Positions 7,722 to 13,517 of a stretch of 64,000 nt of DNA are shown here, piece by piece; positions within the stretch are counted from its first letter, which is position 1, and each line of letters opens with the position of its first letter. The position numbers and the translations under genes were made by a program. Source of the DNA: Thalassovita mediterranea (GTDB taxonomy: Bacteria > Pseudomonadota > Alphaproteobacteria > Rhodobacterales > Rhodobacteraceae); NCBI RefSeq assembly GCF_001458435.1, contig NZ_CYSF01000003.1, forward strand, positions 62,001-126,000, read 5' to 3'. The notes beneath the pieces were generated by a model that had not been told where the DNA came from, made no database searches, and saw only the letters and a list, made by a program, of their open reading frames with translations.

Positions 7722-8756
7722 TCAACAGCCGTTAAACAGGGCTGTCAGCTCCTCTGGCGCGCCCGCCAGACCGATCAACGCCCCTGCCTGCCCACATCGA
7801 AAAACCGGATCACTGGTCGAAATCATCTCGGGGCGTGTGGTGTAGGCGATCAACCCGCTACCCAGAACTGTGTAGCGCCCATCCGGTGCGGGGATTGAAT
7901 AATATCCCTCCACGTGCTGCACGCCAACGTCGCCATCAAACAGCCCAGACTCTAGAGTCTGTGCTGACAGACCGCCCGCCACAGGTGTGCCCAGCACACG
8001 TACACGCATACCCGGCACCAGATGTTCAGGGATCAGGCCACGGATCAGGGTTTGACCGATGCGGAAACCACCATCGCTGTTAAGCCCGTCGAAACTGCCG
8101 CTGATCTGCGCCGTGCGGTCCTGTGCTGTCACCACGTCAACACGCGACGCCACAACCTGATCCCCCTGCCACAGGCCGCTCACCGCGACCCACTGGCCCA
8201 CTTCGGGCGCTGTGACGCCTGCGGGCAGTCGCACCTTGGTGCCCAGCACAGTCATCGTTTCTGCCTGTCGCTGATCGACCGGACCAACCAACGGTGCCAC
8301 ATGGCGCAGATCCACAGCGCGCCAGTCATAACCGTCTGCACCGTCACCGCTGCGACGCACCACAACAGCCACGGTATGACCCGGCTGCAAATCACCCGCC
8401 TGTGTCAGCACTGCTGAACCACGCACCGCCAGTTCGTCGTCAATCCCGATATGGTGGCCGTTGACATAGATGCTGCCCAGCGCGGTGATGGTGCCGTAAA
8501 TACCCGCCTCAAGCTTCACCAGATCATAGGCGGTGACGCCCGTGCCAATGATGCCACCTTCGCGGTCCTGATTGTTCTGCGGTTGCCCGCCAGAAGGACC
8601 AGTGGCCTGCGCACAGGCCTCACTGGCGCAGCCCAGCACCGCGCTTAACCCCAGAGCCGCTGCCACTGCTGCTGTCAGCACTGTGCTGCGGCTCAGTTTC
8701 AGCCCAGAAATCAGATCAGCGCCGCCTTCGCAAAAGCGGGCAAATCGGGTCATCAT
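7722..8756 (-). CDS. DUF5666 domain protein, exported
   Basis: The 344-residue protein has a signal sequence after a long n-region (hydrophobic core about residues 22-42, ending GCASEACAQA). Repeated beta modules of the DUF5666 type follow: GIYGTITALGSIYVNGHHIG, TAQISGSFDGLN, and several near 25-residue segments with G-x-V pattern. It overlaps DUF6502 by ATGA (8753-8756), so the two are translationally coupled and likely act together. The mature protein should sit in the periplasm or on the outer surface. Function of the family is unknown to me. Confidence 0.8.
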   Translation of the reverse strand: MMTRFARFCEGGADLISGLKLSRSTVLTAAVAAALGLSAVLGCASEACAQATGPSGGQPQNNQDREGGIIGTGVTAYDLVKLEAGIYGTITALGSIYVNGHHIGIDDELAVRGSAVLTQAGDLQPGHTVAVVVRRSGDGADGYDWRAVDLRHVAPLVGPVDQRQAETMTVLGTKVRLPAGVTAPEVGQWVAVSGLWQGDQVVASRVDVVTAQDRTAQISGSFDGLNSDGGFRIGQTLIRGLIPEHLVPGMRVRVLGTPVAGGLSAQTLESGLFDGDVGVQHVEGYYSIPAPDGRYTVLGSGLIAYTTRPEMISTSDPVFRCGQAGALIGLAGAPEELTALFNGC

Positions 8757-9613
8757 TCGGTATCCTCCGGGGTACTCGGGGTCTTATCTGCCAACGGGGC
8801 CGGCAGAATATAGGCGCCAAGGACAAAGCGACGTTTGGGGTCTGCATCGCTTTGTGTGGCCTCGTCCGCCTCTTGTAATTTACGCGCCTCGGCGTTGATC
8901 TCTTCCAACAACTCTTGGGCCTTGGCGGCTGACATCTTGCGCAGATGTTCAACCGACGCCTCTGAGAGGTGCGAATAGCGCACCGCGCGATCAAAATGGC
9001 GCCTACCCTCGGGCGGGGCCAAAAGGTTGTCGGTCGCTGCCGCCAGATGTGCGCTCAACGTCGCCTCATAGGCGGCAACCTGTTCAGCGCCACCGCCGGC
9101 AGGCAACAACGTGTGTGCCTTCAGGCAGTAGACACCTTCCGCCTCTTCGGCCACAGCCCCCTGTTCGATGAGCGCCTGCAAAACTGTACCGGGTGCCATA
9201 TCAATGCGGGCCTGTCGCACCAGATCGTCAAATCCGGGGCCTGCGTCATCAGCGGCACGGGTCAAACGGCGAGGACAGCATTTGTTATCCAGATAGTCCG
9301 GCGCGGTGGCCCAATAGCTGATCACCATCGCCGCAGCGGACACAGTGCGCTTGACCTCACATTGGGCGCTGTCATCCCGCAGACGCTTTACGTCCTTGCG
9401 ATGCAATCCGGTCATCAAGCTGATTTTGCTATCACTGATCCGGCCATTGCCCCCCTCCGCCGCCAGTTGATCTAGCGCCGCCTGCAGCATCGCACGCTTC
9501 AACGCCTCTGCCGCAGATCCATAGGTCACCCCACGTGCCATCATCGCCCGCGACAAAGGTGCAAGCAGCGCGGCAAGCGCCTTTTCAAAGGGATCCTGTG
9601 GGGTGTCGCTCAT
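8753..9613 (-). CDS. DUF6502 family protein
   Basis: The 286-residue soluble protein opens with a helix-turn-helix-like part (ALLAPLSRAMMARGVTYGSA, then ISDSKISLMTGLHRKDVKRL), resembling a regulator that reads KISLMTGLHRKDV as recognition helix. A Cys pair (NKCCPRRL) sits near residue 108. This is the DUF6502 pattern, which I recall as commonly paired with DUF5666 proteins. With no signal peptide it should be cytoplasmic, and it may regulate its own operon; that role is inferred. The promoter must lie in the 148-base divergent gap to the adenylation gene. Confidence 0.75.
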   Translation of the reverse strand: MSDTPQDPFEKALAALLAPLSRAMMARGVTYGSAAEALKRAMLQAALDQLAAEGGNGRISDSKISLMTGLHRKDVKRLRDDSAQCEVKRTVSAAAMVISYWATAPDYLDNKCCPRRLTRAADDAGPGFDDLVRQARIDMAPGTVLQALIEQGAVAEEAEGVYCLKAHTLLPAGGGAEQVAAYEATLSAHLAAATDNLLAPPEGRRHFDRAVRYSHLSEASVEHLRKMSAAKAQELLEEINAEARKLQEADEATQSDADPKRRFVLGAYILPAPLADKTPSTPEDTE

Positions 9614-9761
9614 ATCTTCCTGTTCCGGGACTCAGGCGTCTTTATCAAATGCGCAAGGTTTTGACATCCAACGTCTTCGTGAGCCTTTGTTGATGAGACG
9701 TGACTTTAAATGGGAAATTTTCCCATTACAAGCTGGCCGCATCGTCAACTCGGAGGATGAC

Positions 9762-11396
9762 ATGCAGGATATTGCAGCAATTTCCCTAAAAGGCATCAAA
9801 CCCCATTCCCTTTCAGGTACCACGAAAGAAGACCCGCTCGCCGCGCTCAGCGATGCGGACCGTGATCGTTTCCTTGCCTTTGGCTGGGGGCCGATAGAGG
9901 CACCGCGCTTCCCCACCATTTCCGACGCCATCCTGCACCAGATGCGCACGCAACCCGACGCCATTGCCGCAACTTGTGGCGGCGAGGACATCACCTATGG
10001 CACATTGGATGCGGCGTCTAACCGGCTGGCCAATGTGATGCGTGGTTATGGCGTGGCGCGGGGCGATGTTGTCTGCCTCTACCTACGGCGCTCTCTGGAA
10101 ATGCTGGTAGGCATTGTTGCCACGATGAAGCTAGGGGCCGCCTATGCGCCCCAACACGTCGGCGTCGCCCCGACAGAGGCGCTGCGCCATGTCGCAGGCA
10201 TCACAGAGGCCAAGGTGATCCTGACCCTGTCAGAGCTGGCAAGCGATGTTCCCGTCACGGCAGAGCAAACCCTGATCAGCATTGACCCGGTGATGTATGA
10301 CCCCGCGCTGGATGACAGCCTGCCCGATCAGGCAACCTATGCCGCCACCCCCGAGGATCGCGCCATCCTGCTGTTTACCTCTGGTACCACTGGCGTACCC
10401 AATGGCGTGCAGGTCACACACAAGAACCTTGCCAATATCCTGCTGACCGCGCCCGGTGATATGGGCATGCGTCCAGGGCGGAAGGTCGGGCAGATCCTAT
10501 CCATCGCCTTTGACATGGCCGCTTGGGAAACCCTTGGCGCATTGGCCAATGGCGCCACGCTGGTCATTCGCGGCAAGAGCATTCAGGACACCGCCGAACA
10601 GGTGGATGTGCTGATCTCTACCCCGTCGATCCTCAACTCGCTGGATGCCAGTCGCTGCCAACAAGTCAAGGTCGCCGCCGTCGCGGGGGAACCCTGCCCG
10701 CGTCCGCTGGCCGATCTGTGGTCGTCCTTCTGCACCTTCCACAATTCCTGTGGTCCAACAGAAACCACCATCATCAACACCGCAGAACCGCACCACCCCG
10801 ATAAGGCGGTTCTGTCGATTGGGCGCCCTACCCCCAACAACACGGTCTATATCCTGGACGAAGACCTGACCCCCCTGCCCATCGGTGCCAAAGGCGTAAT
10901 GTGGGCCGGTGGTGACTGTGTCACTATGGGCTATCTGGCCAATCCCGATCTGACCGCAGATCGCTACCGCCCCGATCCCTTCCGCCCCGGTCATATGATG
11001 TTCAACACCCGCGATCTGGGGCGCTGGACCGATACCGGCGAATTGGAACATTTTGGGCGCGTTGATGATCTGGTGAAAATCCGTGGTTTTCGGGTGGAAC
11101 TGGACGGCGTCTCTACTGCGCTTGAGCAATCCGATTGCTGCGCGCAGGCGGTGACGCTGAAATATGACAACCGCACGCTGGTCAGCTTTATCTCGCCCGC
11201 GACAGCCTGCCCCAAGAAAGCCGCCGCCGAGGTTGAGGCCCGCCTGCCCTACTATTGCAGCCCTGCCGCCGTTGTGCCGCTAGAGGCGCTACCGCGCACC
11301 CCGCGCGGCAAACTGGACAAGCGACTGCTGCTGCAGATGGCCGATCAGCACCTTGCAAACACACATACACCCAACATTACGGACGCAGCACAATGA
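9762..11396 (+). CDS. Stand-alone amino-acid-type adenylation enzyme (AMP-binding)
   Basis: The 544-residue protein carries all adenylation core motifs: LFTSGTTGVPNGV (A3, residues 204-216), FDMAAWE (A4, 250-256), NSCGPTETT (A5, 328-336), FGRVDDLVKIRGFRVEL (A8) and PRTPRGKLDK (A10, catalytic K517). D251 of the A4 motif matches the Asp that grips the alpha-amino group in NRPS adenylation domains such as PheA, so an amino acid is the likely substrate. No carrier or condensation domain follows. The start at 9762 has GGAGGA 4 bases upstream; an in-frame extension to 9603 runs through the promoter gap and is rejected. The stop overlaps the next ATG, so it is coupled to the membrane flavoprotein. 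Confidence 0.85.
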   Translation: MQDIAAISLKGIKPHSLSGTTKEDPLAALSDADRDRFLAFGWGPIEAPRFPTISDAILHQMRTQPDAIAATCGGEDITYGTLDAASNRLANVMRGYGVARGDVVCLYLRRSLEMLVGIVATMKLGAAYAPQHVGVAPTEALRHVAGITEAKVILTLSELASDVPVTAEQTLISIDPVMYDPALDDSLPDQATYAATPEDRAILLFTSGTTGVPNGVQVTHKNLANILLTAPGDMGMRPGRKVGQILSIAFDMAAWETLGALANGATLVIRGKSIQDTAEQVDVLISTPSILNSLDASRCQQVKVAAVAGEPCPRPLADLWSSFCTFHNSCGPTETTIINTAEPHHPDKAVLSIGRPTPNNTVYILDEDLTPLPIGAKGVMWAGGDCVTMGYLANPDLTADRYRPDPFRPGHMMFNTRDLGRWTDTGELEHFGRVDDLVKIRGFRVELDGVSTALEQSDCCAQAVTLKYDNRTLVSFISPATACPKKAAAEVEARLPYYCSPAAVVPLEALPRTPRGKLDKRLLLQMADQHLANTHTPNITDAAQ

Positions 11397-12706
11397 CCAG
11401 CGAAACCCGATCCTTTGAAACGGACGCCCCCAAGTGGCGCCGTATCACCCGCCACCCCGCACTGATGGAATACCGCCGTCTGGCCACACTGGTGGCGATT
11501 GCGAACCTCACCGTCTTTGTCCTTGGCCTGCAATCGGGCCGCTGGGGCGGCTTTGGCGCCTTTCACCTACAGGCCATCGCGGACATGGCGCTGATCAACC
11601 TGTCGCTGGGCATTTTGATCCGCCAGCAGCGGGTGGTGAACGCGCTGTTCTGGCTGGCCACCCGCCTGCCGACCTCTGCCCCCCTTTGGATGCGCTGGGG
11701 CGCTGGCAAAGTGTTCCACTTTGGCGGGCTGCATTCGGGCGGCACGGTGGCAGGCACCATCTGGTTTGGCTTTCTGTTGTTTGCGATGGGCGCCAACCGT
11801 CTGTCCGGTGCCGCGCTGCCCTCTGATCTGACGCTGGGGCTGTCTGGCGCGATGGTGCTGCTGATGAGCATGATGGTGATTTCCGCCATCGGCCCAATCC
11901 GGGCCAAGTTTCACAACACCTTTGAAAAGATCCACCGTTTTGTGGGCTGGACGGTGTTGGGCCTGTTCTGGGCACAGACCGTGTCGATCACCCGCGATAT
12001 GGGCGCTGATCTGACGGCGACGCCTGCGTTCTGGATGCTGTGCCTGATCACCCTGTCCATCGCATCGCCTTGGCTGACGCTGAAAAAGGTGGATGTGGAG
12101 ATTGTGAAGCCATCCAACCACGCGGTTCTGGCCCGGTTCAATTATGGCGACACGCCCTTTGCCGGATCATCCAACGCGATCAGCCTGACACCTTTTGGGG
12201 AATACCATTCCTTTGCCAATATCCCCGCCCCAGGTGAGCCCGGCTACCGTCTGGCCATTTCGCGCGCTGGCGACTGGACGGGGCGTTTCATCGACAATCC
12301 CCCCAGCAAGGTCTGGGTCAAGGGCATCACCACCAGTGGCGTCGCCCGCATCGAGGTGCTGTTCAAAAAGGTGGTCTATATCGGCACCGGATCCGGCATT
12401 GGCCCGATCCTGCCCCACCTGTTGAAAGGTGAAGTGCCCAACAAGCTGGTCTGGTCCACACGATCGCCGCGCGAAACCTATGGCGATGCGCTGGTGGATG
12501 AGATTGAGGGATCGACCGAAAATCCGGTGATCTGGGACACCGTGACCCAAGGCAAACCCGACCTCAGCACATTGGCCTTGCAGGCCGTACGTGAAAGCGG
12601 GGCCGAGGCGGTGATCGTGATTTCCAACCAGAAGCTCACCCGCAAGGTGGTGCATGACATGGAAGCCTTGGGCATCCCAGCCTATGGCGCGATCTGGGAC
12701 AGCTGA
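11393..12706 (+). CDS. Membrane flavoprotein related to ferric reductases (TmpA-like)
   Basis: The 437-residue protein has about six membrane segments (roughly 29-47, 61-77, 119-134, 146-165, 184-199, 210-229) followed by a cytoplasmic reductase domain. The latter has a degenerate flavin region (YHSFANIPAPGEPGYRLAIS, 271-290) and a clear NAD(P)-binding loop GTGSGIGPIL (331-340). Two His pairs at membrane edges (H109/H114 and H174/H181) could hold heme. The layout resembles ferric reductase/NADPH oxidase proteins and, from memory, the fungal TmpA family, some of which are linked to adenylation domains. It is coupled by ATGA overlap to the adenylation gene, which suggests that the two gene products share a substrate or complex. 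Confidence 0.75.
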   Translation: MTSETRSFETDAPKWRRITRHPALMEYRRLATLVAIANLTVFVLGLQSGRWGGFGAFHLQAIADMALINLSLGILIRQQRVVNALFWLATRLPTSAPLWMRWGAGKVFHFGGLHSGGTVAGTIWFGFLLFAMGANRLSGAALPSDLTLGLSGAMVLLMSMMVISAIGPIRAKFHNTFEKIHRFVGWTVLGLFWAQTVSITRDMGADLTATPAFWMLCLITLSIASPWLTLKKVDVEIVKPSNHAVLARFNYGDTPFAGSSNAISLTPFGEYHSFANIPAPGEPGYRLAISRAGDWTGRFIDNPPSKVWVKGITTSGVARIEVLFKKVVYIGTGSGIGPILPHLLKGEVPNKLVWSTRSPRETYGDALVDEIEGSTENPVIWDTVTQGKPDLSTLALQAVRESGAEAVIVISNQKLTRKVVHDMEALGIPAYGAIWDS

Positions 12707-12716
12707 GGGGGCGATC

Positions 12717-13517
12717 ATGACCTATGAAACCATAGAAACCGAAGTGCGCGGCCGCGTTGGTCTGATCCGGTTTAACCGCCCGGACCAGTTGAACGCACTG
12801 AACACCACCGTGATGCAAGAGGTGCTGGCCGCCGCCAGCGCCTATGCCAAAGACCCCGCCATCGGCTGTCTGATCCTGACGGGTGCAGGCCGTGCCTTTG
12901 CCGCCGGGGCGGATATTGCAGAATTATCGGTGCAGACCTACGCCAGCATGACAGAGGCCGAGTATTTTGCAGACTGGGACCGCTTTGCCGCCCTGCCGAT
13001 CCCCAAGGTCGCCGCGATCAACGGCTTTGCCCTTGGCGGTGGCTGCGAGGTGGCGATGATGTGTGATGTGCTGATCGCATCGGACAAGGCCAAATTCGGC
13101 CAGCCCGAGGTCAAGATCGGCTGTATCCCCGGTATCGGCGGCACCCAGCGTCTGACCCGTCTGGTGGGGCGTGCGATGGCGATGGACCTGATCCTGACGG
13201 GCCGGATGATCGACGCGGCAGAGGCCAAAGATATCGGCCTGATCAGCCGCGTTCTGCCCGCAGAGGCGTTGATGGACACCGCATGGGACACGGCCCAAAG
13301 CATCGCCAGCTACGCAGGTGACATTGTCGAGATGGGGCGCAAATGTGTGAATGCGGCGGATCAAACCACGCTGGACACGGGCGTGCGGATGGAACGGCAA
13401 ATGTACCATGCCCTATATGGCCTGCCTGCGCAGGTGGAGGGCATGACGGCCTTTCTGGAAAAACGCCCGCCAGTGTTTCATGCCCCAGCGGAGCCCAAGC
13501 CAGCCGAGACTGCATAA
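12717..13517 (+). CDS. Enoyl-CoA hydratase/isomerase (crotonase family)
   Basis: The 266-residue protein is a canonical crotonase. The oxyanion-hole segment AFAAGADIAEL (60-70) and the ALGGGCEVAMMCD helix carry catalytic Glu111; FGQPEVKIGCIPGIGGTQRL carries the second Glu131. Both glutamates of hydratases are present, so hydration of 2-enoyl-CoA to 3-hydroxyacyl-CoA is expected. It starts 10 bases after the flavoprotein stop with GAGGGGG as ribosome site, and is the last gene of the three-gene operon. The C-terminal tail (about 255-266) is Pro/Ala-rich. The start at 12717 is preferred over 12654, which lies inside the upstream gene. Confidence 0.92.
   Translation: MTYETIETEVRGRVGLIRFNRPDQLNALNTTVMQEVLAAASAYAKDPAIGCLILTGAGRAFAAGADIAELSVQTYASMTEAEYFADWDRFAALPIPKVAAINGFALGGGCEVAMMCDVLIASDKAKFGQPEVKIGCIPGIGGTQRLTRLVGRAMAMDLILTGRMIDAAEAKDIGLISRVLPAEALMDTAWDTAQSIASYAGDIVEMGRKCVNAADQTTLDTGVRMERQMYHALYGLPAQVEGMTAFLEKRPPVFHAPAEPKPAETA

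Follow-up and report, generated by a model that had tools for sequence, protein, structure and literature searches.

A co-inherited bacterial cassette of adenylation protein, membrane flavoprotein and enoyl-CoA hydratase in Thalassovita mediterranea, a possible counterpart of fungal TmpB/TmpL

What do an amino-acid adenylating enzyme, a membrane flavoprotein and an enoyl-CoA hydratase do together? Genes for these three proteins stand side by side in a 64,000 nucleotide stretch (the window) that is part of the 3.43 Mb Thalassovita mediterranea genome. The proteins are called here the A (adenylation) protein, the flavoprotein and the ECH (enoyl-CoA hydratase). We put the probability at roughly one half that the three genes are a bacterial equivalent, unfused in most cases, of the fungal TmpB/TmpL (NPS12) proteins, joined by an ECH, and that they encode a three-enzyme route to a small product derived from an amino acid. 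The product would most likely be a signal or a specialised metabolite. A reading of the DNA alone (the sequence-only reading) had described three packed genes here, with a 4 base overlap between the A and flavoprotein genes and a 10 base gap between the flavoprotein and ECH genes, and this was confirmed (Table 1).

The arrangement is conserved well beyond this genome. The genomes of 84,980 species were scanned, and the best 80 of 423 flavoprotein relatives make up the first set of loci. Within these best 80, the closest named relative at the locus is Thalassobius sp. Cn5-15, with 92% flavoprotein identity. The phyla represented are Pseudomonadota, Actinomycetota, Bacteroidota, Chloroflexota and Cyanobacteriota, the loci of the last two being metagenome-assembled. 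The A gene is directly upstream of the flavoprotein gene in all 80 loci and the ECH gene is directly downstream in 71, far beyond chance, so the operon proposed from the sequence alone is upheld. A second set, made up of 41 Bacteroidota and Micromonosporaceae loci of which at least three repeat first-set loci, has the A gene before and the ECH gene after the flavoprotein gene in every case. The absence of the trio from other genomes, which the sequence-only reading had held to speak against itself, was therefore not borne out. Where the A gene is separate and full-length (69 loci), it most often overlaps the flavoprotein gene, by 1 base in 36 loci and by 4 bases in 21. The median gap between the flavoprotein and ECH genes is 2 bases, based on the 60 of 71 ECHs that pass as intact under a strict filter; at least some of the failures arise only because the alignment extends beyond the stop codon.

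In some lineages the first two genes have become one. The A protein and flavoprotein are fused in frame at 23 of the 41 second-set loci. All 20 hits in the genus of the Aquimarina genome have the flavoprotein fused in frame behind the A domain, and three of 20 Micromonosporaceae loci are fused, with 17 unfused. Because unfused relatives occur in both fused groups, it is likely that there were at least two separate fusion events (no fusion tree was built). It is clear that the A protein and the flavoprotein are partners.

The ECH belongs to the same unit. The window copy matches PF00378 with 226 bits, and Glu111 and Glu131, which we take to be the catalytic Glu positions of crotonases, are invariant in 36/36 cassette ECHs. 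All 36 fall in one clade (SH-aLRT 99) in a tree with 19 paralogs, a tree made by quick search in which some long paralog branches were flagged. The best match to the window ECH is the cassette copy in 14 of the 15 other genomes searched, the exception being Pseudomonas atagonensis, where a paralog scores slightly above the cassette ECH. The nearest ECH paralogs in the window genome are 48% and 46% identical. Pairwise distances over 57 rows correlate between A protein and flavoprotein (0.94), A protein and ECH (0.89), and flavoprotein and ECH (0.91), values that none of 1000 permutations reached; when 21 divergent loci are taken, the correlations are 0.82, 0.77 and 0.75, and vertical descent or transfer as a block would look alike in both these distances and the clade test. 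The A, flavoprotein and ECH genes are one co-inherited cassette, which is old or widely transferred. A chance association of the three, for which only the short gaps could speak, is ruled out by the conserved gene order, the fusions, the single ECH clade and the correlated distances.

The cassette is thinly spread. With each count including the genome used as its centre, a flavoprotein match was found in 10 of 295 genomes of the window's own family, one of which holds no more than a remnant of 45 residues, and in 3 of 398 sampled genomes of its phylum. The corresponding counts are 2/247 for the phylum of the Aquimarina genome, 20/66 for its genus and 26/200 for the family of the Micromonospora genome. 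This would make the cassette an accessory trait of patchy distribution, which one would expect if it made a specialised metabolite or signal.

What the A protein acts on can be approached through its relatives and its binding pocket. It matches PF00501 with 218.1 bits, passing the Pfam cut-off. This is its sole Pfam match and no carrier (T) domain was found in it, in agreement with the sequence-only reading. Its best NCBIfam match is the amino-acid adenylation domain TIGR01733 at 304.1 bits (curated cut-off 317.4); of the 25 models listed, the highest-scoring one for fatty-acyl-CoA ligases reaches 139 bits. The best solved relatives are A domains of non-ribosomal peptide synthetases (NRPS), with PheA of gramicidin S synthetase (1amu) scoring 229.3 bits. 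Six residues (D251, M252, W255, A308, I337 and K517) are invariant in the 42 aligned A proteins and A306 is kept in 40. Column 286 has Ala in 34, Ser in 7 and Gly in 1; column 329 has Ser in 28, Ala in 10, Gly in 2 and Cys in 2; column 338 has Ile in 28 and Val in 14. That the pocket columns are nearly constant suggests one substrate class, and the small pocket residues together with the Trp suggest a bulky hydrophobic amino acid. The substrate-code columns were set by motif on what we take to be the PheA positions, 278 and 299 being the least certain, and no single amino acid is therefore named. The sequence-only reading that every core motif is kept holds for D251 but not for the P-loop (A3 motif), where Asn214 replaces the usual Lys in 42/42 A proteins. 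The Lys is present in all seven other AMP-binding proteins that were read in the same genome, which has 22 PF00501 matches. The cassette A proteins form their own clade apart from these seven, and their tree has groups similar to those of the ECH tree, as judged by eye.

An A protein that is in fact an acyl-CoA or aryl-CoA ligase would make the trio a small catabolic route ending in beta-oxidation chemistry. The enzymes share a superfamily, there is no carrier protein, the A-domain cut-off is narrowly missed and the neighbouring ECH keeps its catalytic Glu positions. This explanation is nevertheless quite unlikely, given that NRPS A domains are both the best profile and the best solved relatives, that the Asp for the alpha-amino group is present in 42/42 and that the cassette is so patchy in its phylum. 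A plain fatty-acid or aryl-CoA ligase, the other outcome that the sequence-only reading had set against itself, is disfavoured by the profiles and the solved relatives, the protein scoring as an NRPS-type A domain instead.

The flavoprotein is the least familiar of the three. At E<=0.001 it has no match in Pfam, Ferric_reduct (PF01794) included, or in NCBIfam, which may explain why the trio is easily overlooked. The predicted structure (pLDDT 88.2, pTM 0.83) has six long helices and an FAD/NAD(P)-type domain, and the window protein has the NAD(P) loop GTGSGIGP, so that the six-helix membrane protein with an NAD(P) loop seen in the sequence-only reading is retained. NADPH oxidases match the model over its whole length at 13-14% identity, including SpNOX (Z 23.9, 364 residues, 14% identity) and NOX2 (Z 23.4, 402 residues). 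By sequence profile, NOX2 and DUOX1 are matched only marginally (E about 7e-4). The predicted model has the NADPH-oxidase fold. A mixed alignment of the fused protein with rows for the separate A protein and flavoprotein was misaligned (A row 28% identity) and was not carried into a fold prediction.

The conserved His residues set the protein apart within this fold. The four His described in the sequence-only reading, two in transmembrane helix 3 (TM3; His109 and His114) and two in TM5 (His174 and His181), are invariant in 49/49 flavoproteins, as are Trp124 and Trp193 in the flavoprotein alignment. His181 falls on the first TM5 heme His of the oxidases. With hhalign, an alignment of ten proteins that match FAD_binding_8 (two resemble soluble reductases) gave the same placement; TM3 is poorly aligned there. 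In NADPH oxidases such as NOX2, the heme His pairs of TM3 and TM5 are usually some 13-14 residues apart, a spacing also seen in L151-L155. The pairs in the flavoprotein are 5 and 7 residues apart. None of the 49 flavoproteins has a His at TM3 positions 119-130 or at TM5 position 194, 13 residues past His181, and position 195 is Gln in 40, His in 7 and another residue in 2. With no second TM3 His and no or only a rare second TM5 His, the usual two-heme membrane path is unsupported in most copies. Most copies would, on their sequences, support one heme at most.

Alternatively, the flavoprotein could be a genuine NADPH oxidase, or an enzyme of redox homeostasis, that produces or controls reactive oxygen species (ROS), the A protein then serving as a sensor or regulator and not in biosynthesis. 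The fold would fit, as would the disturbed ROS levels and the hypersensitivity to oxidative stress of fungal tmpL mutants, which are described in PMC2766074. Such a role appears unlikely, however, when the usual two-heme path is unsupported in most copies, and the conserved amino-acid-binding and catalytic residues of the A protein, together with a dedicated ECH, point to metabolism.

Under the preferred reading, that of a three-enzyme route, the A protein would activate an alpha-amino acid of hydrophobic or aromatic kind by converting it to the adenylate. Having no carrier, it would pass the acyl group to CoA or directly to its membrane partner. NAD(P)H would supply electrons to the flavoprotein, which would relay them by way of FAD (and, in most copies, no more than one bis-His heme) to an acceptor accessible from the membrane's inner half, so that the activated substrate would be oxidised or reduced. 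The ECH would then add or remove water at the alpha,beta-position of a CoA ester. We infer this substrate, this order of reactions and this kind of product. The sequence-only suggestion of membrane chemistry on an activated amino acid would fit such a scheme. A bolder version, which is doubtful, is a carrier-free pathway shared across kingdoms, in which the A protein feeds an amino acid to an NADPH-oxidase-fold enzyme that has no two-heme path and uses an organic molecule as its redox substrate in the inner membrane half, a crotonase follows, and the result is a diffusible signal of fungi and bacteria.

Several points weigh against the three-enzyme route. The A protein falls short of the curated TIGR01733 cut-off, and the change of P-loop Lys to Asn could mean an altered or weak adenylation. 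Seven of the 49 flavoproteins have a His195 close to a possible second heme ligand site. The ECH gene was not seen beside the cassette in nine of the 80 first-set loci (L024, L032, L034, L052, L054, L055, L060, L074 and L081; the contig of L060 stops 162 bases past the flavoprotein gene), and the ECH may therefore be dispensable or come from elsewhere. The CoA-ester step is deduced from the ECH alone. The likeness to the fungal proteins is drawn from their published layout rather than from fungal sequences.

Some copies of the cassette depart from the common form. In the Cochlodiniinecator locus (L055), the flavoprotein gene is followed not by the ECH but by an aldehyde dehydrogenase frame with a missing N-terminal region and by a fatty-acid-hydroxylase-family gene. 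The remnant in the window's own family (L018, G280) is a match to the last 45 flavoprotein residues with an internal stop, apparently a decayed copy. Halomonas sp. SpR8 (L081) has a flavoprotein 70% identical to that of the window, an A gene split into two frames and no ECH found; the identity of this copy and its broken A gene suggest transfer, and it is likely a transferred, decaying cassette. In a Chloroflexales metagenome-assembled genome (L100), the contig edge upstream of the cassette holds another, partial match to the flavoprotein, which looks like a duplication of the cassette.

Relatives of the flavoprotein also occur without the A gene. One, on a plasmid of Pantoea piersonii (L019), is 45% identical, with no A or ECH gene annotated in 13 kb. 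Three on cyanobacterial plasmids (L020, L021 and L022) have about 29% identity and a His 14 residues past the TM5 His181 position, and each is followed by a protein of approximately 415 amino acids (aa); that of L020, the one scanned, is HlyD-like. A same-strand search of 2.5 kb around the flavoprotein gene in these four bacterial loci found no frame that has an A-type P-loop.

Is the cassette under its own control? Of the 50 alphaproteobacterial loci whose upstream DNA is long enough, 47 have a DUF6502-group gene next to the A gene and divergent from it, and a DUF5666-group gene stands behind the DUF6502-group gene in 40/49; these groups were named from Pfam matches of the window copies, and genes of other loci were grouped with them by BLAST. 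Neighbours of these types were seen in alphaproteobacterial loci only. No paper naming DUF6502 was found in the literature searched. The model of the DUF6502 protein is weak (pTM 0.51), and only one PDB entry, the DNA-binding protein HetR, matches it under E 1e-3 (TM-score 0.26), which makes a role as DNA-binding regulator suggestive only.

Between the DUF6502 and A genes of the window is a perfect palindrome, AATGGGAAATTTTCCCATT. It is the single such site in the 3.43 Mb genome with up to 2 mismatches and is not expected in shuffles of the window. Its core, TGGGAA-N2to4-TTCCCA, is present in 33/80 first-set loci, all of them among the 47 with a DUF6502-group gene, and eight further DUF6502-group loci have the palindrome with one half-site mismatch. 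Among loci L079-L102, none of the 22 having 300 bases upstream has the core. There are 34 occurrences of the core in 1.22 Mb of locus DNA, and 33 of these are within 450 bases before the A gene, the 34th touching the assigned start in L076. The alphaproteobacterial copies of the cassette share a cassette-specific palindrome, a candidate operator for the divergent DUF6502 protein.

Table 1. Coordinates in the window of the cassette genes and of the features upstream of them
Feature	Position	Strand	Basis and remarks
A gene (stand-alone NRPS-type adenylation protein, 544 aa)	9762-11396	+	Pfam/NCBIfam profiles, solved relatives, alignment
Membrane flavoprotein gene (437 aa, six helices, predicted NADPH-oxidase fold)	11393-12706	+	Predicted structure, alignment
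Enoyl-CoA hydratase (ECH, crotonase) gene, 266 aa	12717-13517	+	Pfam, alignment, tree
Palindrome AATGGGAAATTTTCCCATT, candidate operator	9709-9727	n/a	34 bases before the A start codon
DUF6502 protein gene, candidate regulator	8753-9613	-	Divergent from the A gene; Pfam; weak structural match
DUF5666-domain protein gene	7722-8756	-	Pfam; 4-base overlap with the DUF6502 gene

Outside the cassette itself, no fourth gene conserved across phyla was found except a two-component set. A histidine kinase and/or response regulator is nearby in 9/23 other loci (L079, L082, L088, L091, L092, L093, L095, L096 and L102, with L081 left uncounted), as judged by eye from the sequence. Ten neighbours, each found in a single group, were also scanned; they did not recur across phyla and were set aside. 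These surroundings bear on a further explanation, in which the membrane protein is a metal (ferric) reductase for siderophore or metal uptake and the A protein makes part of a chelator. The fold is of the NADPH-oxidase/ferric-reductase type, and genes resembling an iron ABC transporter (by eye) are present approximately 2 kb downstream in the window. The explanation is highly improbable, since Pfam Ferric_reduct is not matched, the two-component set is the only extra neighbour cluster in at least 9 of the 24 divergent loci (smaller clusters could still hold iron genes), and neither an A-domain fusion nor a dedicated hydratase would be expected.

The value of the cassette lies in the fungal systems it resembles. 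Fungal tmpL and tmpB affect sporulation, redox balance and virulence, and the portions of PMC2766074 and PMC4804170 at hand name no substrate or product. No TmpB/TmpL product and no description of a bacterial A-flavoprotein-ECH trio was found in the literature searched, some result lists being covered only in part, and the available parts of PMC4198257 and PMC5561558 hold nothing bearing on the system. A compact bacterial operon with the same parts is a simple place to find the chemistry of this unsolved fungal system. That the bacterial operon includes the hydratase suggests that this enzyme belongs to the pathway and is no bystander. If true, an NADPH-oxidase-fold protein without the usual second heme and tied to amino-acid activation would be a new use of the fold.

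Comparison with known systems starts with the A protein. It is like PheA in its overall match, with D251 as the Asp for the alpha-amino group and K517 as the catalytic Lys. Unlike PheA it stands alone, without a carrier domain, and has Asn for the P-loop Lys. Stand-alone bacterial A domains are known elsewhere. The cassette is carried by Micromonosporaceae, the family to which Salinispora belongs. Bushley and Turgeon placed stand-alone A domains of Hahella and Salinispora within the NPS12 clade, and the part of their paper that was available mentions no flavoprotein or hydratase partners for them (PMC2823734).

The flavoprotein is like the superfamily of SpNOX, NOX2 and the ferric reductases in joining a six-helix domain to an FAD/NADPH domain, with a predicted fold that matches over the whole length, and it has profile matches to bacterial FAD_binding_8 proteins. 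It is unlike the NADPH oxidases in the missing Ferric_reduct match, the close spacing of its His pairs and the lack of a second TM3 His. The A-less relatives on the Pantoea and cyanobacterial plasmids are like fungal TmpA, the conidiation flavoprotein of Aspergillus nidulans, which has no A domain. In contrast to these bacterial loci, tmpA adjoins afeA, a coumarate-ligase-like gene, according to PMC4804170.

The closest likeness is to A. nidulans tmpB, tmpL of Alternaria brassicicola and A. fumigatus, and Cochliobolus NPS12. TmpL consists of an A domain, six transmembrane helices and an FAD/NAD(P) domain, with flavin binding shown experimentally, and its authors considered orthologs to be confined to filamentous fungi (PMC2766074). 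The cassette has the same parts in the same order: a carrier-less A protein, six transmembrane helices and an FAD/NAD(P) domain, the fungal side being known from description only. The GSGIGP motif of TmpL (same source) has its match in the TGSGIGP of the window flavoprotein. The sequence-only reading had named a link between TmpA flavoproteins and adenylation domains; this fits TmpL and TmpB, described in PMC2766074 and PMC4804170 as single chains, and the fused bacterial versions in the genus of the Aquimarina genome and some Micromonosporaceae. Its statement that no common pathway has this set needs amending, as A. nidulans tmpB also has an ECH/isomerase gene alongside (PMC4804170). Unlike TmpL, the window and most bacterial loci keep the A protein and the flavoprotein as two genes, in an operon with the ECH, and the window cassette is for this reason filed as a counterpart of TmpL and not as TmpL itself.

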